The notes under the pieces are model-generated. The model saw only the letters and a list, made by a program, of their open reading frames with translations, made no database searches and was not told the DNA's origin. 25,919 nucleotides of DNA from a virus, in the IMG/VR virus record IMGVR_UViG_3300010157_000219, positions 1 to 25,919 of that record; one strand, written 5' to 3'. Positions 15,058 to 24,570 of the stretch are shown in pieces. The first letter of the stretch is position 1. Each line of letters opens with the position of its first letter. A program made the translations under genes and the position numbers.

Positions 15058-16464
15058 TCAAACTCCTTTTGACTGACGGTACTGTTTAATGGCATTGCGC
15101 AGACCATTCTGGGTCTGAGCCTTGTCGTCGAGCGCCAGTGCCTGCGCTTGATCCAAAGTGTCACGCATCAAGATGCGGTGGCACATGACGGGTGCCCCTT
15201 GACCTTGACGCCGGACACGGGCGTTGAACTGCTCATACAGGTCAAGGCTCCAGTTGAGGCCGAACCACACCAAGATGTGGCCAGCGTCTTGCAAGCCGTC
15301 GATCCCGTGGCCCATGGAGGCAGGGTGACCGATCATCAAGCGGCAATCGCCACTCTTCCAGCGAGCCATGGCGTTGACCAAGTCTTTCTCGCTCTTGCAC
15401 TCGGTCAGGTTGATCGGACGGATCGACTTGAACTTGGTCATGATGCGCTCAGCGTCTGATCGGTAAGCATAGGAGCACAGCACAGGTGAGCCGTTGGCCT
15501 CATCGATGATGTCCTCGAGCGCCTCGAGCTTGAAGTCGTGGATCGCCTCCCACAGAGGCATCCCGGCCACTGGGTACATGGCGCCGTTGCTGAACTGGAG
15601 GCACTTGTTGGTAAGGGATGCCTGGTTAAACATCTCCACCTCTGTGCCGCTGTCCAGGCGCATGAAGAACTCTTTCTCCATCTTGTCGTACTTGCCTCTG
15701 AGCGCATCGGGCATCTCGATCTCGATGTTGTTCACGATCAGATCAGGCAGCGGGTTGTAGTCGGCCGCGCTCATCTCCAACGTGATGTCGCCAATGAGAC
15801 TCTTGATCGTTGTCTCGGTGTCTTCGTAGGCCACCTCTTTGTACGGACCCACCTTGCGGTAGAACCGGGTGCGGAACGCCGTCTTCGATGTGCCCAGGCG
15901 CAGACCCCTGTCCACCACAAGGAATTGGCCATGCAGGTCCTTGTAGCCGTTGGATGCCGGTGTGCCAGTGAGGCCAGTGGTCCAGACGAACTTGTCCAGG
16001 ATCTTCTTGACAGCCTTGACCCGGTCGGTGGCGCTGTTCTTCATCTTGCTGATCTCGTCCCACACGATGCCGGTGAATGGCAGATCTTTGCCTTTGCTGA
16101 CGAAGTAGGTGTGCAGCGTCTCCGACATCCAGCGCAGGTTTTCGTAGTTCGTCATGTAGATGTCAGCGGGGCGCAAGAGGGCGCGGGTGCGCTGATCCTT
16201 GGTCCCCATGACCATGCTGAACTGGAGGTGCTTGGTGTGTTCCCACTTAGCAGCCTCCTGGCGCCAGACCAGTCGGATGACGCGGATCGGTGCGACGATC
16301 AGGACACCCTTCAGGAACTGAGTCTTGACGAGGTGGGCGATCGAGGTCAGCGTGACCACGGTCTTGCCCAGTCCCATGTCCAGCCACAGCATCGAGTTAG
16401 GGCTGCTGCACTGGAAGTTGACCGCCTTCTTCTGGTAATCGTGGAGTAAATTAGGGGTCAGCAT
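15058..16464 (-). CDS. SNF2-like superfamily 2 helicase/translocase
   Basis: 468 residues. The motifs in order are: LHDYQKKAV (Q-like, 7-15), Walker A DMGLGKT (29-35), IVAPIRVIRLVW (motif Ia, 56-67), DEIS at 136-139 as the DEAH-box equivalent, LTGTPASN (motif III, 165-172) and, near the C-terminus, GHILVWFGLNWSLDLYEQFN followed by ARVRRQGQ (motifs V/VI with arginine finger). This is the compact SNF2/DEAD-like helicase widespread in phage replication cassettes, usually beside a VRR-NUC gene as here (7-nt overlap). It would use ATP to translocate on or remodel DNA, perhaps assisting replication-fork processing. There is no clear ribosome binding site, so coupled translation is likely. Confidence 0.9.
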   Translation of the reverse strand: MLTPNLLHDYQKKAVNFQCSSPNSMLWLDMGLGKTVVTLTSIAHLVKTQFLKGVLIVAPIRVIRLVWRQEAAKWEHTKHLQFSMVMGTKDQRTRALLRPADIYMTNYENLRWMSETLHTYFVSKGKDLPFTGIVWDEISKMKNSATDRVKAVKKILDKFVWTTGLTGTPASNGYKDLHGQFLVVDRGLRLGTSKTAFRTRFYRKVGPYKEVAYEDTETTIKSLIGDITLEMSAADYNPLPDLIVNNIEIEMPDALRGKYDKMEKEFFMRLDSGTEVEMFNQASLTNKCLQFSNGAMYPVAGMPLWEAIHDFKLEALEDIIDEANGSPVLCSYAYRSDAERIMTKFKSIRPINLTECKSEKDLVNAMARWKSGDCRLMIGHPASMGHGIDGLQDAGHILVWFGLNWSLDLYEQFNARVRRQGQGAPVMCHRILMRDTLDQAQALALDDKAQTQNGLRNAIKQYRQSKGV

Positions 16465-16757: not shown

Positions 16758-16908
16758 TTGCTTCTCTCAGTAGTTGGATGGCGTCCTTTAGATCAAGACG
16801 CAGTTGCTCAAGTGCTTCGTTCAGTGCGATGTTTTGCTCGTACTGCTCTTTGGCAAATCTGGCCAGGTTTTCGTGGCTCCATGTCTCAAAGTAGGGCTTG
16901 TCTGTCAT
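16738..16908 (-). CDS. Small conserved protein between polymerase and VRR-NUC
   Basis: 56 residues from the ATG at 16908, which overlaps the polymerase stop (ATGA); a longer upstream start would duplicate polymerase coding sequence and is rejected. The sequence opens with MTDKPYFETWSHENLARFA and continues as one long helix ending in LRLDLKDAIQLLREAN. The pattern TWSHENLA.FA ... LR.DLKDA resembles short proteins I recall next to phage polymerase genes. Probably helical, possibly a binding partner of the polymerase or nuclease. Function unknown. Confidence 0.7.
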   Translation of the reverse strand: MTDKPYFETWSHENLARFAKEQYEQNIALNEALEQLRLDLKDAIQLLREANAGKTN

Positions 16909-18746
16909 GCCAGTCCGAGGCAGAGTTTCTCCACCTCCCTCACGTAGTAGTCGTAGTCCACAGGCAGCGTGGCATCTTCGATGTCGTTGCAGACCTGCAC
17001 CTTCCAGCCACTTTCGACGCCGATCTGGCGCCACACGCCGGGCTTCTTAGCCAGAGGCGGCATCCACTTCATCAAGGGCTTACCATCCTTGGCGATGTAG
17101 TAGCGCGAGATGTTCTGTGCCTGCTCCTCGCCCCACTGGAGATAGCTTGAGCGCGGGACCTTGGTGCGCAGCATGAAGTCCATGATGTGCGGCCACTGCT
17201 CCACGGTCTCGCGGATCGGGGCATCCTCAACCAGCACCTTCTCTGTCACTTTGGCGACCACCAGTGCACCGGCGTTCTGATGCCAGCCCATGTTGTACTC
17301 ATAGGCGCCTTTGCGTTTTATACGGCCATCCGTGTATACGGCGATATAGTTGTTTACATCTCGGATCATCATCGACTTGTAAATCGATTCTTCCAGTTGC
17401 AGGCCGGTGGCCACTTCCCAGACTTTGCGAGTCTTTTCAAGCTCAGGCAACTGGCTCCTGGGGATGCGCACAGTCATGCCGTCGGTGTTCACCTGGATCA
17501 ACTTAGCCTCGGTCCAGCGTGTGATCTCCTCGGCCAGCCAGCACAGCAGCAACTGGCCGTTGAGCGTGATGCTCATGGTGAACAACGGGTCGTAGAAGAC
17601 AGAGAACTGGTTGTTCGAATCGCCGTAGACGCCGTTGAGCGCCAGCTTCAGCATGGCGTTTTCTGCGCTGTTCTTTGCGTATGACTTGCGCTGCTCGTAC
17701 AGGGTTTTGTAGATGGTGACGAATGTCTGGCCAAGGTGGGCAGGGTAGAACCCATTCGCGATTGCCAGGTTTGGATAATATGAACTGACATCGAGGTCCA
17801 CGATAACGGACACATCGTCCGACTCGATGACTTCACTCTCAACTGACCCATGAATACCGCCTAATCCAAATACAAATTCAAAACCGTCGATTCTCGCAGT
17901 CAAATCGGTGAAGACGCCCTTGGTCTCCGTGATAACTTGATCCTTGAGCCAGTTGAGCACCCGGGTGAACTCAGGTGACTGAAACGCGATCCATGGCAGG
18001 ATGGCGTCTTTGAGCGCGATGGTCGGGCGCTTGGTCTGCCGTGGTGTGCGGCCACTGGGGCCGAACTCGTAGCAAGAGACACCAGCCTCCTCGAGCTTCA
18101 TGGTGAAGAACTCTTTGCCGATCTTGGTGTCGTTGTAGTTGATCCAGTCGCGCCCTGGGTACAACGTGCATAGTTTTTCGCGAAAATTGATCATGTCCGA
18201 CGTGACGTGCATAAATTTCTTCGTCTGCGCGACATCGTGGTGGTTGTACTTCTTGAGCACTTCGATCTGTTCAGGCGTCAAGACCGTGCCAGGCTTGTAG
18301 GGCAGGTCTTTGATGCTGTCTGAGCGCATGTTGAACTCGAGGGCTTTGAGGCTGGTGGCCCGGGCCTTGTTGTCAAAGTGATGAATCTTGAACAGATCGA
18401 TCTGGGCGACGTAGCGATCACTGGGGCTCACCAGATGAGCCCACTTGCTGCCGTCTTCATCCTGCGAGTTAAAGATCGCCTGCGCTTTGTCGTACAGGGT
18501 ACGCGCATCGCTCTTGCCCATGCGCATGAGGGTGTGGATCACCGGATAATCGAACCCCAAGTTGTTAAAGCCGACCATGCGTGCATTGGTCTCCTTGAGG
18601 TACTGGAAGAACGCAACGATCTCGCGACTGTCATTGCGTAAGTCACTGATCTCGAACAGCCAGCGCAAAGGTGCGCTTGCGTGTTCCACCGCCAGCGTGA
18701 ACACGTTGGGATAGACCTCAATATCGTAGACATAATCATTACTCAT
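16905..18746 (-). CDS. Family B DNA polymerase with 3'-5' exonuclease
   Basis: 613 residues from the ATG at 18746. A TTG 45 bases upstream adds a Pro/Arg-rich stretch and is less likely; neither start has a strong ribosome binding site. Exonuclease motifs: YDIEVYP (ExoI, Asp8/Glu10), GFNNLGFDYP (ExoII, Asn61-Asp66), YNHHD (ExoIII, 167-171). Polymerase motifs: DLDVSSYYPN (motif A, catalytic Asp319), KLALNGVYG (motif B, Lys367-Gly375) and QVNTDGMTV (motif C, 419-426). Motif C reads NTDG instead of the usual DTDS; the second, metal-binding Asp (422) is kept. The protein is shorter than cellular family B enzymes and compact like phage ones. It replicates the phage genome together with the neighbouring SSB, helicase and the primase at 21601. 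Confidence 0.9.
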   Translation of the reverse strand: MSNDYVYDIEVYPNVFTLAVEHASAPLRWLFEISDLRNDSREIVAFFQYLKETNARMVGFNNLGFDYPVIHTLMRMGKSDARTLYDKAQAIFNSQDEDGSKWAHLVSPSDRYVAQIDLFKIHHFDNKARATSLKALEFNMRSDSIKDLPYKPGTVLTPEQIEVLKKYNHHDVAQTKKFMHVTSDMINFREKLCTLYPGRDWINYNDTKIGKEFFTMKLEEAGVSCYEFGPSGRTPRQTKRPTIALKDAILPWIAFQSPEFTRVLNWLKDQVITETKGVFTDLTARIDGFEFVFGLGGIHGSVESEVIESDDVSVIVDLDVSSYYPNLAIANGFYPAHLGQTFVTIYKTLYEQRKSYAKNSAENAMLKLALNGVYGDSNNQFSVFYDPLFTMSITLNGQLLLCWLAEEITRWTEAKLIQVNTDGMTVRIPRSQLPELEKTRKVWEVATGLQLEESIYKSMMIRDVNNYIAVYTDGRIKRKGAYEYNMGWHQNAGALVVAKVTEKVLVEDAPIRETVEQWPHIMDFMLRTKVPRSSYLQWGEEQAQNISRYYIAKDGKPLMKWMPPLAKKPGVWRQIGVESGWKVQVCNDIEDATLPVDYDYYVREVEKLCLGLA

Positions 18747-18862
18747 AACTGTTACTCGGTAAGGTGGAGGCCTCGATTTGGGTTTCGACAAACCGCAGAA
18801 GAAAACCAGAAAATCCTGCGGGTCACCATCCTCGAATGCTGGTTTAACAGCCCCCGATTCGT

Positions 18863-19489
18863 TTACTGACCCAAGAACGATGGCAGACCTGGCATGGCCA
18901 CAGGAGCAGCCACAGATCCAAACATATTCGACGCATCAGCGGCGCCTTCACCAAACGCTGTGTCGTCCCGCAGGAACTGGAGAGCCACCAGATCACAGCG
19001 GATGCCGTTACCGTAGGAGTTTGCCTGCACCCAAGGCTTGACAGCAGCATTGACGCGGCAGCCGCCGTACATCTTGCGAGTCAGCATCTGGTAAGCCATG
19101 GTGTTGTTCGGGTCGATCGGTGTGCCGTTGGCCTCGATGATCTGAGGCGGCTGGTCACGTCCAGCAGTGATGAACAGGTTGCCTGCATAGCCGTCGTAGG
19201 GCTTAAAAGTTTTCTTATTGACCTTCTCGTCGCCTTCACCGAAGCAGCGGGTCTTGCGATCTTTCGAGATCATGGTCATCACAGTCTGAGCGTGCTCAGC
19301 CCACTTTTGCAAAGCCAACTCGCTGTAACGCTTCATGAACGCTGCAAAGCCTGGGTGGTCCTTGGGCATGATGAACTCGCAGTTGTAACTGACGCGAGTG
19401 GCGCCAGTCTGCTCGTTCACGTTCTTCTGAGGCTCAGCGATGTGAGGGAAGGACAGGCGGACATCCGATAACAAGATAATTTCTGACAT
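18863..19489 (-). CDS. DUF2815-type single-stranded DNA-binding protein
   Basis: 208 residues from ATG 19489; GGAG lies seven bases upstream, and an in-frame start nine codons earlier adds unrelated residues. The opening ILLSDVRLSFPHIAEPQKN, the middle KPYDGYAGNLFITAGRD, and the section GGCRVNAAVKPWVQ with GIRCDLVALQFLRDD match the DUF2815 family, which is predicted to have an OB-like ssDNA-binding fold and occurs in phage replication cassettes. The C-terminus is Ala/Gly/Pro-rich and probably flexible, ending in SFLGQ rather than the acidic tip of bacterial SSB. It sits between the DUF2800 nuclease and the polymerase, the order seen in many phages. Confidence 0.85.
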   Translation of the reverse strand: MSEIILLSDVRLSFPHIAEPQKNVNEQTGATRVSYNCEFIMPKDHPGFAAFMKRYSELALQKWAEHAQTVMTMISKDRKTRCFGEGDEKVNKKTFKPYDGYAGNLFITAGRDQPPQIIEANGTPIDPNNTMAYQMLTRKMYGGCRVNAAVKPWVQANSYGNGIRCDLVALQFLRDDTAFGEGAADASNMFGSVAAPVAMPGLPSFLGQ

Positions 19490-19503
19490 TTGATAACTCC
19501 AAT

Positions 19504-20802
19504 TTACTTTAACCAATCCGGCAGGGCCGGGACTTCTTCAACTGCACCAAACAGTGGTGCAGCGTTCATGACGACCGCAGGGCGCTCGTCTGACTCGGGA
19601 ACGACGGTGAGCTTGCCAGCCACCCTCGTGATGTACTCGGTGTTCATTGTTTTGATCTGACGCTCCGAGAGTTGTTTGTTGGTCTCCACGCCGCTGCGCT
19701 TGGTTCGCCAGACGACCTTCTCAGCCTTGGCAGGACTGATCAGCTTGACCTCGTAGACTTCAGCCTTGGGCATCCCCATCTTCATGAGCTTCTCGGCGAT
19801 GTCGTCATCACTCATGGACCAGTTGCGGCTACCGCGACCATGGACCAGCTTCAAGCCTGGGATCGAGATGCCGGCCTTGAATCGCTTCATGGCTTCCTTC
19901 TCGACGGCCTCAAGGAGCTGGCGCATCAGGGGTGCAGCCTCCATGATCTGGCAGATCTGACGCTCGTCCATCTTGGCCGGGTCTTTGTCGGCAGCCTGCT
20001 GCGCAATGTCCAGCACCTCGACCGGCGAGAACAGCTCCATGGCGTTCATGACGTTGCCGGCCAGCGCAGTGCAGCTACCCTTGGCGCGGCAGTACTTGCA
20101 CTGATCTTCACCAGGCACGAGTGCAGCATCGGGCATGTCGGTGGCAGCGGCGCCCAGGACGTACTTGGGGATCTTGGCCAACAGGTCCTTGACAGACATC
20201 TCCACCGAGTTGATCGGCTTCATGCCCTTCAGGGCCAGCTTAGGCTGGATCACGGTCAAGCGCACCGTGTCAAACGGGTATGCCACATTGACCGGCAGCT
20301 TGAACGCAGCCAGAGCGCCCAGACCGTACAGCTCGAGCTGGGGGTTGTTCTCCACGGCGACATAGTTCATGCCGTCCTTGTAGTCAATCACCTCCAGCAC
20401 CCGAGATGTCAGGGCGTGAAGCTGCACGTCGGCCGTGCCGCTCATGTCGTTACGGCCCAGGAAGTGCTCAGGGTCTACGCGCTGCTCAGAGATGACCTCG
20501 CAGTCATCACCCATCTCTTTGCCGCGCTGCTTGATGTAATCGATGGCCATGCGCACACGGGATGCGCGCAGGTCGTCAACAGTGAACGCGCCCTCGTGAT
20601 CCTTCAGGGTTTTCCCTAAAGCGACATTGGGGTCCTCGAGGCCACCCAGGATGCAGCACTCGAGCAGATAGTGCGAGTGGGTTCCGTCTACTGCGGCCGG
20701 TCCACTCTCCTCCTCGGGGTACTTGGCCTCCTCCCGGATCGAGCCGGGGCAGGAGAGCCAGCGCACCGCCTTGGATGGCGACAACATGGCATGAGTGCTC
20801 AT
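19504..20802 (-). CDS. DUF2800 RecB/Cas4-like nuclease with probable Fe-S cluster
   Basis: 432 residues, coupled to the upstream gene by ATGA. Features of the RecB-type PD-(D/E)xK family are visible in order: GTHSHYLLE (41-49, helix with the conserved His), GTADV (122-126, Asp125), LEVIDYKDG (136-144, Asp140-x-Lys142) and NPQLELYG (153-160, QxxxY). Cys18 (LSCPGS), Cys235, Cys238 and Cys244 (CKYCRAKGSC) match the split four-cysteine arrangement that holds an iron-sulphur cluster in AddB and Cas4. It is probably an exonuclease that prepares DNA ends for recombination or replication, working with the DUF2815 protein encoded downstream. The C-terminal ~150 residues are variable and lack a recognised motif. 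Confidence 0.85.
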   Translation of the reverse strand: MSTHAMLSPSKAVRWLSCPGSIREEAKYPEEESGPAAVDGTHSHYLLECCILGGLEDPNVALGKTLKDHEGAFTVDDLRASRVRMAIDYIKQRGKEMGDDCEVISEQRVDPEHFLGRNDMSGTADVQLHALTSRVLEVIDYKDGMNYVAVENNPQLELYGLGALAAFKLPVNVAYPFDTVRLTVIQPKLALKGMKPINSVEMSVKDLLAKIPKYVLGAAATDMPDAALVPGEDQCKYCRAKGSCTALAGNVMNAMELFSPVEVLDIAQQAADKDPAKMDERQICQIMEAAPLMRQLLEAVEKEAMKRFKAGISIPGLKLVHGRGSRNWSMSDDDIAEKLMKMGMPKAEVYEVKLISPAKAEKVVWRTKRSGVETNKQLSERQIKTMNTEYITRVAGKLTVVPESDERPAVVMNAAPLFGAVEEVPALPDWLK

Positions 20803-21245
20803 TTCAGCGCTTCCACACCAGCGTACAAAGCCGAGTAGTGCTCAGGCTTGATCTCGTTGATGTTCTGGTAGCCCAGGGTGGTCAGCACGCCTTGGATCAT
20901 GGCGCCCTTTTCTTGGCCCATGGACTTGTAGGACGCCAGGACGTAGTCCATGAGTCCCTTGGCGTCAGTAAACGGTGCGCCGGCGGGTGCTGGGGCTGGT
21001 GCAACTACCCCGATGAATGAGGGTGGTGCAGGCATTGCAAGTGTGACGGCGCCGGGTGCGGTAACCACTGGGACTGGTGCTGCGGGTACAGGGTCCACGA
21101 CAGTGACGGTAACCGGGGCAGCTTGTACCACAGGGGCAGGTGCTGGCGCAACGGGTGCAGCAGGTGCTACATTGCTCGACTCCAGCTTGGCTGTGAGGGT
21201 GACGATAGCGGCGGTGAGCGCCTCGATTTTGGCTTCAATTGACAT
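20799..21245 (-). CDS. Protein with coiled coil, long Ala/Pro/Val linker and small C-terminal domain
   Basis: 148 residues. The first ~24 residues form a short helix (MSIEAKIEALTAAIVTLTAK). Residues ~25-90 are a low-complexity Ala/Pro/Val linker (APAAPVAPAPAPVV, VPAAPVPVV). The last ~55 residues form a compact helical domain (AKGLMDYVLASYKSMGQEKG and NINEIKPEHYSALYAGVEAL). The arrangement suggests an oligomerising N-terminus tethered to a binding domain. Similar C-terminal domains occur in phage proteins next to DUF2800 genes, so a role in assembling the replication or recombination complex is possible. I do not recognise a defined function. The gene overlaps the ribbon-helix-helix gene by 11 nt. 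Confidence 0.7.
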   Translation of the reverse strand: MSIEAKIEALTAAIVTLTAKLESSNVAPAAPVAPAPAPVVQAAPVTVTVVDPVPAAPVPVVTAPGAVTLAMPAPPSFIGVVAPAPAPAGAPFTDAKGLMDYVLASYKSMGQEKGAMIQGVLTTLGYQNINEIKPEHYSALYAGVEALK

Positions 21246-21429
21246 GATAGAGACTTTCTTTACGTGTTACAGGTGGTTGAATTGTGAGGCGGTCGTCATT
21301 GAACGCCTCCACTAGTTCACGCAAGACATCAGACGGTTGCCCGAACTTCTTTGCCTTGACGTGGAACTTCTTGTGCGTCTCAGGGAGAACCCTGAAATGC
21401 AGAAACTTTGATTTAGGTTTGGTTGCCAT
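21235..21429 (-). CDS. Ribbon-helix-helix-like DNA-binding protein
   Basis: 64 residues, the first gene of the leftward operon. A short basic N-terminus (MATKPKSK) is followed by FLHFRVLPETHKKFHVKAKK and GQPSDVLRELVEAF. This is a beta-strand and two helices separated by a Gly turn, the size and pattern of Arc/CopG/MetJ-type ribbon-helix-helix repressors. AGGAA lies in the leader. Because it is the first product of the operon and an 18-bp dyad overlaps the likely promoter just upstream, autoregulation is the simplest expectation. It could alternatively be an accessory DNA-binding protein for replication. Confidence 0.7.
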   Translation of the reverse strand: MATKPKSKFLHFRVLPETHKKFHVKAKKFGQPSDVLRELVEAFNDDRLTIQPPVTRKESLYHVN

Positions 21430-21457
21430 GAAATTTATTTCCTGATCCGTTGAACAA

Positions 21458-21487
21458 AGTGTAGCACACCTGTGGTACGATTGTGCA
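21458..21487 (-). promoter_or_regulatory. Probable leftward promoter of the replication operon
   Basis: On the minus strand, TGCACA (-35, four of six consensus bases; 21482-21487) is followed after 18 bp by TACACT (-10, four of six; 21458-21463), preceded by TGC as in an extended -10. It lies about 30 bases upstream of the ribbon-helix-helix start. The match is moderate, and the position is right for the leftward operon. Confidence 0.5.
21461..21478. promoter_or_regulatory. 18-bp dyad, candidate operator
   Basis: GTAGCACACCTGTGGTAC is a near-palindrome of the form GTA-N-CACA-NN-TGTG-N-TAC (14 of 18 positions symmetric). It overlaps the -10 box and spacer of the probable leftward promoter. 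A third half-site, TGTGCAAC, follows at 21482-21489 and covers the -35 box. Binding here would block the promoter. The ribbon-helix-helix protein encoded just downstream is the obvious candidate binder. Confidence 0.6.
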
Positions 21488-21493
21488 ACAGTT

Positions 21494-21509
21494 TGAAAAA
21501 TATTTTTCA
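21494..21509. repeat. Perfect 16-bp AT-rich palindrome
   Basis: TGAAAAATATTTTTCA is identical to its reverse complement. It lies between the operator/promoter and the terminator hairpin in the divergent intergenic region. It could be a second operator, part of the promoter for the rightward primase gene, or an easily melted element of a replication origin. Confidence 0.6.
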
Positions 21510-21515
21510 GGCAAG

Positions 21516-21543
21516 AAAAAGCCCCGTGGATTAGACGGGGCTT
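21516..21543 (-). terminator. Rho-independent terminator for leftward transcription
   Basis: AAGCCCCGT (21519-21527), a 7-nt loop and ACGGGGCTT (21535-21543) form a perfect 9-bp stem. On the minus strand the stem is followed by TTTTT, from the A-run at 21516-21520, giving a classical terminator for leftward transcripts. On the + strand there is no T-run. It therefore stops antisense transcription across the primase gene before it reaches the replication-operon promoter. Confidence 0.8.
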
Positions 21544-21600
21544 AAAGAGGATTTAACCAGTGAACAAGCCAGCAACTGCATTACCAGCGAGAGTTATTAT

Positions 21601-24057
21601 ATGAGCGCAATCCCATCGGTGCAACAGCACCCGGCATCAGTCGATGCCTATATCCGGCATGGCTGGAGTCTTGTGCCCATCCCCTCGGGGACCAAGGGCC
21701 CACGCACCCCGGGCTGGAACAAAAAAGAGTCAGCGATCAAGTCGCAAATCGAGTTGCCGCAGGGCTTCGGTATCGGCCTGGCCCATGCTTACAGCGGCAC
21801 GATGGCCTTTGACATTGACAACTGGGACATCACGGTTGCCCAGGGCATCGATCTCAAGGCTTTGTACGACGCCCCTGACGCGGTGATCATCGACTCTGGC
21901 CGCCAGGGTCACGGTAAGTTGCTGTACAAGATGCCCTTCGGCCTAGCGCTGCCATCCAAAAAGATCATCATCGACGGCGTCACGGTGTACGAGCTGCGCT
22001 GCGCCACGGCCAATGGCCTCACGGTGCAGGATGTGCTGCCCCCATCGATTCACCCCGATACCCGGCAACCCTACCGCTGGGCTGGCCGTGGCCACTGGGA
22101 GCGGCTGCCCACGATCCCCCAGATGCTGCTCGATCTGTGGCAGGGCTTTCTGGAGAAAGAAAAAGACCGAAACCTTTCAACAGGTGACGCGCTCAACGCA
22201 TCATGGGAAGAGATCCGATCAGCCCTAGAGCACATTGACCCCGACTGCTCACGGGAAGAGTGGGTGCAGGTGGGCATGGCTCTGAAGTGGGCCGGTGAAC
22301 AGACCAACGAGGTCGACCAGGCTCTGTCAATCTGGCATGACTGGTCCAAGCCTGCCCTGAAGTACCTCGGTGAGCGTGAGATCGTCACGCAGTGGTCGAG
22401 TTTTAAGAACGACAAAGTCAACGCTGTCAAGTTGGGGACACTGTTCCACTTGGCCAAACAGCACGGTTGGAGCAGAGCAATGCCAGACATCTCGGACCTG
22501 TTCAAATCGATTGAGTCAGCCCCCATCCCGCCGGTGGACGTGATGGCCGGGCTTAAACCACCAGCACCTGAGATCGACCTGTCCCTGTGGCCCTCAGTGC
22601 TTGCCACCCGTGCCATGCAGATGTCCGAGTCTGTGGGCTGCGACCCACTTGTGCCCCTCTTCGCAGGGCTCTCGGCGGTGTGTGGTGTCGTCGATGCACG
22701 CATCCGCCTCGAGTTGATGCCGGGCTTTCAAGTGCCGCCGGTGCTGTGGCTCATGACGATAGGCGATCCAGCGGACAAAAAGAGTCCAGGCTCCAGACCC
22801 ATGCTGTCGGTGCTAAAGACGATTGAAACAGAAGATCTGCCAAGATACAAGAAAGACCTGTTGGTGTGGGAGGGTAAGGAGGCAGCCCACGAAGCTGCGC
22901 ACAAGGCTTACCTGGCTCACATGTCCTCGTCTGAAGGGATGATGGACCCCTCCAGCGCGCCGGTGGTGCACGATCTGCCCGAGAAGCCTGCGCCCCTGAA
23001 AATCACGGTCTCGGACATCACATCACAAAAGCTCGTGCGCCATGCTTCTGAGCGGCCACGGGGCCTGCTGTGTTACCTCGATGAGATGAACTCTTGGGTC
23101 AAGAAGCTCACCGACAAGACCAGCGGCGAGGACCGGTCGACTTGGGTGGTGTCCTACGAGTCGGAGACCTATGACATGGACCGGGTGGGCAGTGGCTCGA
23201 TCCATTGCGAGAACCTGGCCATCAGCATCTACGGCAATATCCAGCCCCGGGTGTACAAAGACAACCTAAGCTCGCTCACGGCCGATGGCCTGCTCCAGCG
23301 GTTCATCCCTGCAATCCTGCGCGGCGACAAAACGCGCCTGGGTGAGCCGATCCCCGAGTTCATGACCAACAAGGCGCAGTGGGAGCAGATGCTGCGCTTG
23401 GTGTACGCGCTGCCAGCGCAGACCTACAAACTCTCAACTGAGGCTCACGCCGTGTTTCGCGAGTTCCAACGCTGGTACGAGGCAGCCAAGCGAGATGAGC
23501 GCACCCTGAGCAGCCCCGAGGCGTTCATGACCGCGTTCGGTAAGCTCGAGGGCACGACCGGGCGCCTGATCCTGGTGATGCACCTCATGGAGCGGCCGTT
23601 CGATCTGCTGGTGCAGCCCGATGTCGTGGAACGCGTGATCCGTATCGTCAAAGAGTACGTGATCCCCGCCTTCAGGTATTCACTGGGCGAGGTGGGCGGC
23701 GTTAACTCGTTTGACGCGTGGGTCGCGGACTACGTGATCCAGCATGCCGACAAGGCTACGCTGACCATGTCCGAGATCAAGCGCTCAGCCAGGCGTCAGG
23801 TGGAGCACGTGAGCCCGTGGCAGGCCGATCAGATGGTCATCAATGCCATGACGCTACTGGAGCAAAGCACTTGGGTCGCGCGTATGGACGATGGGACGAA
23901 AGAGCACCAGCACATCGCGCAGTGGGGGATCAATCCTCAGTTGATGGAGTTGTTCAAGGGTCACCGCAAGGCAGTGCTGGAGGCCAAGCAGCGGCAACTG
24001 GACGAGATTTACAAGGCCGCCCCTCACGCGCGTAAGCGCGTACCCGGGGCAGAATGA
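21601..24057 (+). CDS. Primase-polymerase with PriCT-like region and DUF3987 helicase-like domain
   Basis: 818 residues. Residues ~14-185 are an archaeo-eukaryotic primase (Prim-Pol) domain: GWSLVPIPSGTKGPRTPGW at the N-terminus, MAFDIDN (catalytic Asp71, Asp73), SGRQGHGKLLYKMP (His104) and ELRCATANGLTVQDVLPPS. Residues ~200-292 (WEEIRSALEHIDPDCSREEW to KLGTLFHLAKQHGW) match the PriCT-2 linker domain. Residues ~330-700 resemble DUF3987, with a modified Walker A (GDPADKKSP, 388-396) and Walker B LLCYLDEMN (489-497). It should synthesise primers and possibly unwind DNA at the phage origin. It is the only rightward gene in this half of the window, flanked by terminators. Upstream GAGAG (21589-21593) is a weak ribosome binding site. 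Confidence 0.85.
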   Translation: MSAIPSVQQHPASVDAYIRHGWSLVPIPSGTKGPRTPGWNKKESAIKSQIELPQGFGIGLAHAYSGTMAFDIDNWDITVAQGIDLKALYDAPDAVIIDSGRQGHGKLLYKMPFGLALPSKKIIIDGVTVYELRCATANGLTVQDVLPPSIHPDTRQPYRWAGRGHWERLPTIPQMLLDLWQGFLEKEKDRNLSTGDALNASWEEIRSALEHIDPDCSREEWVQVGMALKWAGEQTNEVDQALSIWHDWSKPALKYLGEREIVTQWSSFKNDKVNAVKLGTLFHLAKQHGWSRAMPDISDLFKSIESAPIPPVDVMAGLKPPAPEIDLSLWPSVLATRAMQMSESVGCDPLVPLFAGLSAVCGVVDARIRLELMPGFQVPPVLWLMTIGDPADKKSPGSRPMLSVLKTIETEDLPRYKKDLLVWEGKEAAHEAAHKAYLAHMSSSEGMMDPSSAPVVHDLPEKPAPLKITVSDITSQKLVRHASERPRGLLCYLDEMNSWVKKLTDKTSGEDRSTWVVSYESETYDMDRVGSGSIHCENLAISIYGNIQPRVYKDNLSSLTADGLLQRFIPAILRGDKTRLGEPIPEFMTNKAQWEQMLRLVYALPAQTYKLSTEAHAVFREFQRWYEAAKRDERTLSSPEAFMTAFGKLEGTTGRLILVMHLMERPFDLLVQPDVVERVIRIVKEYVIPAFRYSLGEVGGVNSFDAWVADYVIQHADKATLTMSEIKRSARRQVEHVSPWQADQMVINAMTLLEQSTWVARMDDGTKEHQHIAQWGINPQLMELFKGHRKAVLEAKQRQLDEIYKAAPHARKRVPGAE

Positions 24058-24229: not shown

Positions 24230-24570
24230 TTTTTACCTTCCGCAATACCTGCACTAAATGCACGGTCAATGTCTTCTTTTGTGTAGGCTGGCTGTGCGGG
24301 AATAGTTATTTTTTTAATCCCGTTAATTGCTTTTTGTACCCACGTAGCAGCCTCAGCAGCATAAGCAGCACGAGAAGCAGCATAAGCAGCACGAGAAGCA
24401 GCATAAGCAGCATAAGCAGCATAATCAGCAGCAACAGCAACATTAGCCGCCTTCGCAGCAGCATGCGTTTTCTCGCTGCACATTTGCGCCCAAGTCTCGC
24501 CATGCCCGGCTGCATCGGCTTGAGGTTGATAAGCAGTCAGTGCTGCCCACATTTCGTCTAATTTAGTCAT
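24223..24570 (-). CDS. Ala/Tyr-repeat protein (115 aa)
   Basis: AAGGAG lies close to the ATG at 24570. The N-terminus (LDEMWAALTAYQPQADAAGH, then GETWAQMC) is conserved-looking. Residues ~38-75 are a low-complexity helix built from AAYAASR and AAY units, with Tyr and Arg on a regular face; the C-terminus (AYTKEDIDRAFSAGIAEGKK) is a normal charged helix. Such Ala-Tyr repeat proteins occur in the small-gene regions of phages, with variable repeat number. A long, single amphipathic helix is expected. A structural spacer or a host-protein binder is possible. Function unknown. Confidence 0.75.
   Translation of the reverse strand: MTKLDEMWAALTAYQPQADAAGHGETWAQMCSEKTHAAAKAANVAVAADYAAYAAYAASRAAYAASRAAYAAEAATWVQKAINGIKKITIPAQPAYTKEDIDRAFSAGIAEGKKW
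24356..24424. repeat. Tandem 21-bp and 9-bp coding repeats
   Basis: Two perfect 21-bp units (24356-24376 and 24377-24397; seven codons each, AAYAASR) are followed by three 9-bp units gcagcataa (24398-24424), all in frame in the 115-residue gene on the minus strand. Perfect identity at the DNA level indicates recent slippage or active expansion and contraction. Confidence 0.85.

Follow-up and report, generated by a model that had tools for sequence, protein, structure and literature searches.

Two blocks of replication genes point away from each other in a virus record of 25,919 bp (the whole stretch of DNA that was analysed, hereafter the window), and the short symmetric sequence between them raises the question of whether its symmetry is that of a repressor operator, of promoters, or of both. 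A preliminary description of this DNA had proposed the first of these, an operator with a third half-site through which the ribbon-helix-helix (RHH) protein encoded by the first leftward gene switches its own replication operon. The features that bear on the question are the following.

15058-16464, minus strand: SNF2-type helicase.
16905-18791, minus strand: DNA polymerase (phrog_1252).
18863-19516, minus strand: Enc34-type ssDNA-binding protein (SSB).
19504-20802, minus strand: DUF2800 / PD-(D/E)XK exonuclease.
20799-21245, minus strand: 148-aa protein, second leftward gene, no assigned function.
21235-21429, minus strand: 64-aa RHH-like protein, first gene of the leftward operon.
21450-21455, plus strand: -35 TTGAAC of the predicted rightward promoter, spacer 20, within the fourth half-site GTTGAACAA.
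21458-21463, minus strand: -10 TACACT of the leftward (RHH/replication) promoter, with TGC at 21466-21464.
21461-21478, no strand: inner dyad GTAGCACACCTGTGGTAC, read as two extended -10 arms placed back-to-back, a geometry repeated in relatives.
21476-21481, plus strand: -10 TACGAT of the predicted rightward (Prim-Pol) promoter, with TGG at 21473-21475.
21483-21488, minus strand: -35 TTGCAC of the leftward promoter, spacer 19, within the third half-site (21481-21489).
21496-21507, no strand: A/T tract AAAAATATTTTT, upstream of the leftward -35.
21519-21543, minus strand: terminator-like hairpin pointing at the leftward (RHH) promoter, inside the predicted 5' leader of the Prim-Pol mRNA.
21601-24057, plus strand: Prim-Pol / PriCT-2 / DUF3987 replication protein, the divergent gene.
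25842-25507: HTH-like regulator (phrog_2104 and regulator families).

The inner dyad lies exactly where it had been placed, at 21461-21478, with zero mismatches. As had also been claimed, it overlaps the minus-strand -10 (21463-21458), the minus-strand -35 (21488-21483) falls within the third half-site TTGTGCAAC (21481-21489), and the promoter that the element overlaps precedes an RHH-like first gene followed by replication genes. Absent from that description is a fourth half-site at 21449-21457, the mirror of TTGTGCAAC. Transcription starts are predicted from the sequence near 21451 (leftward) and near 21488 (rightward), about 37 bp apart. Because elements of both strands fall within 21450-21488, the locus has, judged by its sequence, the arrangement of overlapping divergent promoters. 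A strict sigma-70 scan (spacers of 16-18, at least 9/12) called no promoter at the element on either strand, which counts against the promoters; the spacers of the window (19 and 20) are long. Extended -10 elements relax the need for a good -35. The A/T tract resembles an UP element.

The dyad is probably a pair of overlapping divergent promoters that serves both replication operons, with regulation by the RHH protein as an added layer. The 41-bp element at 21449-21489 would be a dyad-symmetric unit in which TGC-TACACT drives the RHH-exonuclease-SSB-polymerase-helicase block leftward and TGG-TACGAT drives Prim-Pol rightward, while the outer half-sites would hold both -35 TTGs, each just past the -10 of the opposite promoter. 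RNA polymerase would engage this DNA in one orientation at a time, so that the two replication operons may compete, and the RHH protein, as the first leftward product, might bind the symmetric DNA and repress both arms after accumulating. We put the chances that the RHH protein binds the element and represses both arms at about even. Competition of this kind was not seen for five bidirectional E. coli promoters tested, whose basal level was too weak for it according to the available text of that study (PMC12825309), and this counts against polymerase competition here. The promoter overlap and the RHH-first operon of the preliminary description stand, and the element is conserved in relatives; the autoregulatory operator switch is not supported as it was stated, since two divergent extended -10 promoters explain the symmetry more simply, with an element that would then also serve Prim-Pol on the other strand and with outer half-sites that would be the two -35 elements. 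In addition, RHH genes that are almost the same occur next to promoters with little in common except the promoter skeleton.

In the window alone, the dyad is within chance expectation. Perfect dyads with the same seven pairs occur twice (the other at 18692), and 100 dinucleotide shuffles contained a mean of 1.76, with 59 of them having at least as many as the window. Since this single-window test is not significant, the case for the dyad rests on relatives.

Relatives were collected by scans with the 148-aa protein, the N-terminus of Prim-Pol, the RHH protein and an RHH alignment, the last contributing its best 80 of 182, and phage DSL-LC05 was added. Contigs were fetched repeatedly in part, and duplicates were merged by sequence. 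The set comprised 201 loci including the window. A usable RHH gene together with upstream DNA was available for 187 of them, and removal of identical upstreams left 106, which represent 37 RHH clusters (80% identity); the 14 loci left out comprise 12 without an RHH match, one (L150) with too little upstream DNA and one more. For the table of aligned columns, 20 duplicates and then L067, L072 and L075 were removed from 88 rows, leaving 65. Of the 106 unique upstreams, 104 have a divergent ORF of 200 aa or more, and the remaining two have less than 230 nt of upstream DNA. Among the 113 loci fetched through neighbouring genes, many of them contigs already seen, 101 carry the RHH gene; four of the 12 others begin near a contig end and eight are distant Prim-Pol relatives. 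The phage integrase family PF00589 was found in 0 of 23 records, and DSL-LC05 is predicted to be lytic by BACPHLIP (PMC10611076). One scan of cellular genome contigs gave a single relative among 64 matched stretches, L224, from an Anabaena MAG, where its contig is 5.3 kb long; this only RHH relative in cellular genome contigs is possibly a stray phage fragment.

The preliminary description had made its reading depend on conservation of the dyad, and the geometry is indeed kept in relatives. The skeleton that recurs consists of two back-to-back extended -10s (TGN-TANNNT), with each -35 TTG lying beyond the -10 of the other promoter. TG precedes the leftward -10 hexamer in 62 of the 65 aligned rows, a count that is to some extent built in, since the alignment was anchored on a -10-like hexamer and TG was favoured in 31 of the rows. 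Downstream of it, the columns of a CAAC motif are each conserved in 52-56 of the 65 rows, and the whole motif in 43. CAAC is the TTG of the rightward -35 read on the other strand, and the leftward promoter has no need of it.

The rightward promoter recurs as well. A TTG...NANNNT pair is called at the mirror position in 85 of the 106 unique upstreams and in 27 of the 35 cluster representatives with a called leftward promoter (tallied by hand from the result rows), compared with 6.3% of 10,500 shuffles in which the leftward elements were kept. The rightward TANNNT was found in 84/106 upstreams and 29/37 cluster representatives (shuffles 29.9%), and in combination with TG in 48/106 and 15/37 (shuffles 1.7%). 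The search imposes TA...T on this hexamer, for which the shuffles serve as control; positions 3-5 vary (TACGAT, TACACT, TACAAT, TACAGT, TAAGAT and TAACAT). In L128 and L129 the left arm reads TTA for GTA, which breaks the GTA/TAC symmetry while TANNNT is retained, and this pattern is that of a promoter requirement, unlike a strict GTA/TAC operator requirement. The 21 upstreams without a called rightward promoter count against this reading; in several of them the script misplaced the leftward -10, and by eye L002 has no TTG and L038 no TA...T; a few positive calls also look misplaced (e.g. L055). Both -35s lie closer in cluster 20 (spacers 16 and 17) than in the window, and the spacers are out of step elsewhere (16/19 in cluster 2; 18/17 in cluster 17 and most of cluster 24), a further point against the reading.

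The Prim-Pol leader has further recurrent features. Terminator-like hairpins similar to that of the window occur in 67 of the 106 relatives. A 14-codon leader ORF, VNKPATALPARVII, was also observed at 21560-21604 on the plus strand, with a stop that overlaps the Prim-Pol start (ATGA). An ORF of any length overlapping the Prim-Pol start in this way is present in 81/106 relatives, and many of the leader ORFs among the 25 shown resemble M(K/N)xxATAxTSExIL. Beyond the gene, short repeats of the GCAGCATAA type at 24340-24450 lie in a small minus-strand ORF, in which they encode the alanine/tyrosine repeat AAYAASRAAYAA.

The strongest alternative, which we regard as a serious contender though somewhat short of even chances, is that the dyad is primarily an operator of the RHH protein, with four GTNNCACA half-sites bound by RHH dimers for autoregulation and with an incidental match to a rightward -10. 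All 106 unique upstreams, which were found through RHH or its neighbours and then filtered for RHH, have the RHH gene next to the element. The presence of the gene at 101 of the 113 neighbour-found loci points the same way, as does a common sequence type with four half-sites resembling GTNNCACA. Were TGNTACNNT itself the RHH half-site, the recurrent pattern described above would arise without any rightward promoter, which counts against the divergent-promoter reading. In L011, L041 and L058 the leftward TTG has become TGG with GTNNCACA retained, and in two of the three cluster 23 members the octamer GTGCTACA/TGTAGCAC is present as an inverted pair, of which the upstream copy is not an obvious -10; these cases may be a hint of operator half-sites. 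Against this alternative, the conserved bases mostly coincide with promoter elements.

If the element were the operator of the adjoining protein, the two might be exchanged together, and one comparison suggests this. Between the window and G010 (L034), the promoter is identical at 41/70 and the RHH gene at 125/186 columns, although the flanks are nearly the same (148-aa gene 428/436, leader plus Prim-Pol 482/500), indicating that promoter and RHH gene were exchanged jointly. The swapped block, window 21235-21497, stands between flanks of 96-98% identity and has its junctions near the A/T tract AAAAATATTTTT and the start of the next gene. The same two sequences show a second trough of identity (64-79%, with about 95% around it) at 17285-17584, in the DNA polymerase gene. 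A weaker joint exchange is seen between L112 and L196 (promoter 50/94, RHH 121/207; flanks 256/296 upstream and 422/500 downstream); L195/L196 is similar upstream, and its downstream alignment is poor (455/697).

Other comparisons run against a joint exchange. In four hand-picked pairs, the RHH genes are 95-100% identical and the promoters 68-83%: L019/L021 (RHH 203/204, promoter 65/87), L054/L055 (192/201, 58/85), L013/L015 (201/204, 77/93; flanks differ too) and L051/L053 (188/198, 70/86). Conversely, the promoters of L041/L069 and L041/L077 are 92% alike by a measure that ignores gaps, and their RHH genes are 70% alike. Across the 97 of 106 unique upstreams that have the Prim-Pol N-terminal peptide motif with enough sequence for the test, partial correlations with promoter distance were 0.16 for RHH, 0.14 for Prim-Pol and 0.16 for the second gene. 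The observed value was reached in 1/300 permutations for RHH and 0/300 for Prim-Pol, so each correlation is non-zero and both are alike. Such near-equal correlations argue against any special coupling of promoter and RHH protein. Among 87 pairs with similar downstream DNA, a screen for an RHH gene or promoter that has diverged more than either flank picked out 15, by a lenient promoter measure that ignores gaps. One of these (L019/L021) differs in the promoter alone, and several have like promoters with unlike RHH genes. Autoregulation of the replication operon by the RHH protein may thus be regarded as plausible, at about even odds.

The assignment of the 64-aa protein to the RHH class rests on three observations: a Pfam match to HicB PF05534 (E = 0.0015, 18.8 bits) that is under the family cut-off of 21; an AlphaFold2 model of the monomer with helices at 16-29 and 32-44 and no strand modelled (pLDDT 70.6, pTM 0.43); and a weak best Foldseek match to FitA (E = 6.3; Z 2.3, rmsd 13.3 over 54 residues). 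No RHH chain was found among PDB sequence matches for this protein. R13 is invariant in 28 aligned sequences and sits where the strand would lie. Position 11 in this stretch (H, S, T, N or V) was considered as a specificity residue and is not decisive, since L054/L056 and L055 share the residue while their promoter types differ.

Further sites that such a protein might bind were sought in the window and beyond. A search of the kind proposed in the preliminary description returned a single copy of the dyad's own sequence in the window with up to three mismatches allowed (1.08 expected). The window and the contigs of ten relatives were scanned with two 44-base profiles, whose source sequences contain the scanned sites themselves. 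With the first, a single strong site scoring 63-67 appeared in the window and in 4/4 contigs of that type, all shuffled maxima being below 0, and the second gave one (73-77) in 3/3 contigs of its type; the other three contigs have sites of different sequence types that score low or are missed. Since the way the profiles were built partly accounts for the strong matches, the informative part is the absence of any second strong site, and the profile scan gave no convincing regulon site in the ten relatives' contigs. Weak matches were obtained in G001 (6.0), G008 (3.5), G002 (11.6, second profile) and G010 (7.5); the one in G010 is that contig's RHH site read on the reverse strand. Neither profile matched G011 or W01, although both have a different type of element upstream of RHH. 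We also observed a dyad-like site, AAGTGTATCACACTT, in L096 near record position 21240 (G007) and in L097 near 7233 (G008), apparently just upstream of another gene's start in both. A free search for the best inverted repeat in each upstream was uninformative, as A/T tracts often score equally and shuffles reach 7/8 pairs in 9%.

It is improbable that the element is instead bound by another regulator, either the HTH-like protein or a host factor. An HTH-like regulator is encoded within the window, and the annotation of DSL-LC05 includes a 'repressor protein C' as well as a 'putative transcriptional regulator', but no link was found between these genes and the element. We consider it very improbable that the element acts, additionally or alternatively, as an iteron-like replication origin by the A/T-rich tract, bound by Prim-Pol: repeated half-sites do stand beside this tract and adjoin the replicase gene, but they match promoter hexamers at recurring spacings. 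A functionless chance dyad can be practically dismissed, for although the shuffles yield such dyads at the rate given above, the position and geometry are repeated in most of the 106 unique upstreams and across the 37 RHH clusters.

For the protein, and for the protein only, two known systems offer comparisons. Arc and Mnt of phage P22 are small phage RHH repressors that act at phage promoters and control different genes from those here. DSL-LC05 has gene names that we take to be P22-like (packaged DNA stabilization gp10 and DNA transfer proteins). No Arc or Mnt chain was found among sequence matches up to E 10. Omega/ParB of pSM19035 is an RHH protein that binds WATCACW heptads in promoter regions, including that of its own gene (PMC9499535), and the half-site TATCACA of some relatives fits this heptad. 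Unlike the contiguous heptads of Omega, however, the half-sites of the window (TACCACA and TAGCACA) are spaced, and there is no ParA-like partner among the scanned window proteins.

For the DNA, the closest described systems are the bidirectional promoters of E. coli and Salmonella, in which divergent starts lie 7-25 bp apart (usually 18) and one -10 is shared (PMC12825309, PMC10268837). The likeness is in pseudo-symmetric DNA that takes polymerase in either orientation, one binding event excluding the other, and at acrA/acrR the product of one arm, AcrR, represses both RNAs, which parallels the role proposed here for the RHH protein. In contrast, the present element has two separate extended -10s and more widely spaced predicted starts, and by its sequence it thus falls outside the published definition. 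Plasmid pLS20 also has overlapping divergent promoters, one of which drives a regulator gene, and its regulator RcoLS20 acts on both; it differs in being a conjugation switch with DNA looping, and the available text of that report describes no dyad of two extended -10s (PMC4207663). We found no description of the element itself in the literature searched, a coverage that most subscription journals fall outside.

If the divergent-promoter reading is true, one 41-bp symmetric element would apportion host RNA polymerase between two replication gene blocks in a group of phages known almost entirely through metagenomes, and the small protein encoded beside it would form a minimal feedback loop on that element. 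What differs from the described bidirectional promoters, which share one -10, is the use of back-to-back extended -10s with each -35 beyond the other's -10. It is conceivable, if rather unlikely, that the RHH gene and the two-way promoter together make up an exchangeable, immunity-like specificity cassette in these apparently lytic freshwater phages. Were this so, near-identical flanks would carry different RHH/promoter alleles, and a resident RHH protein would shut down the two replication arms of a co-infecting phage if its type matched, and not if it was of another type. The 106 natural variants are available for separating the bases that serve polymerase from those that may serve a repressor.
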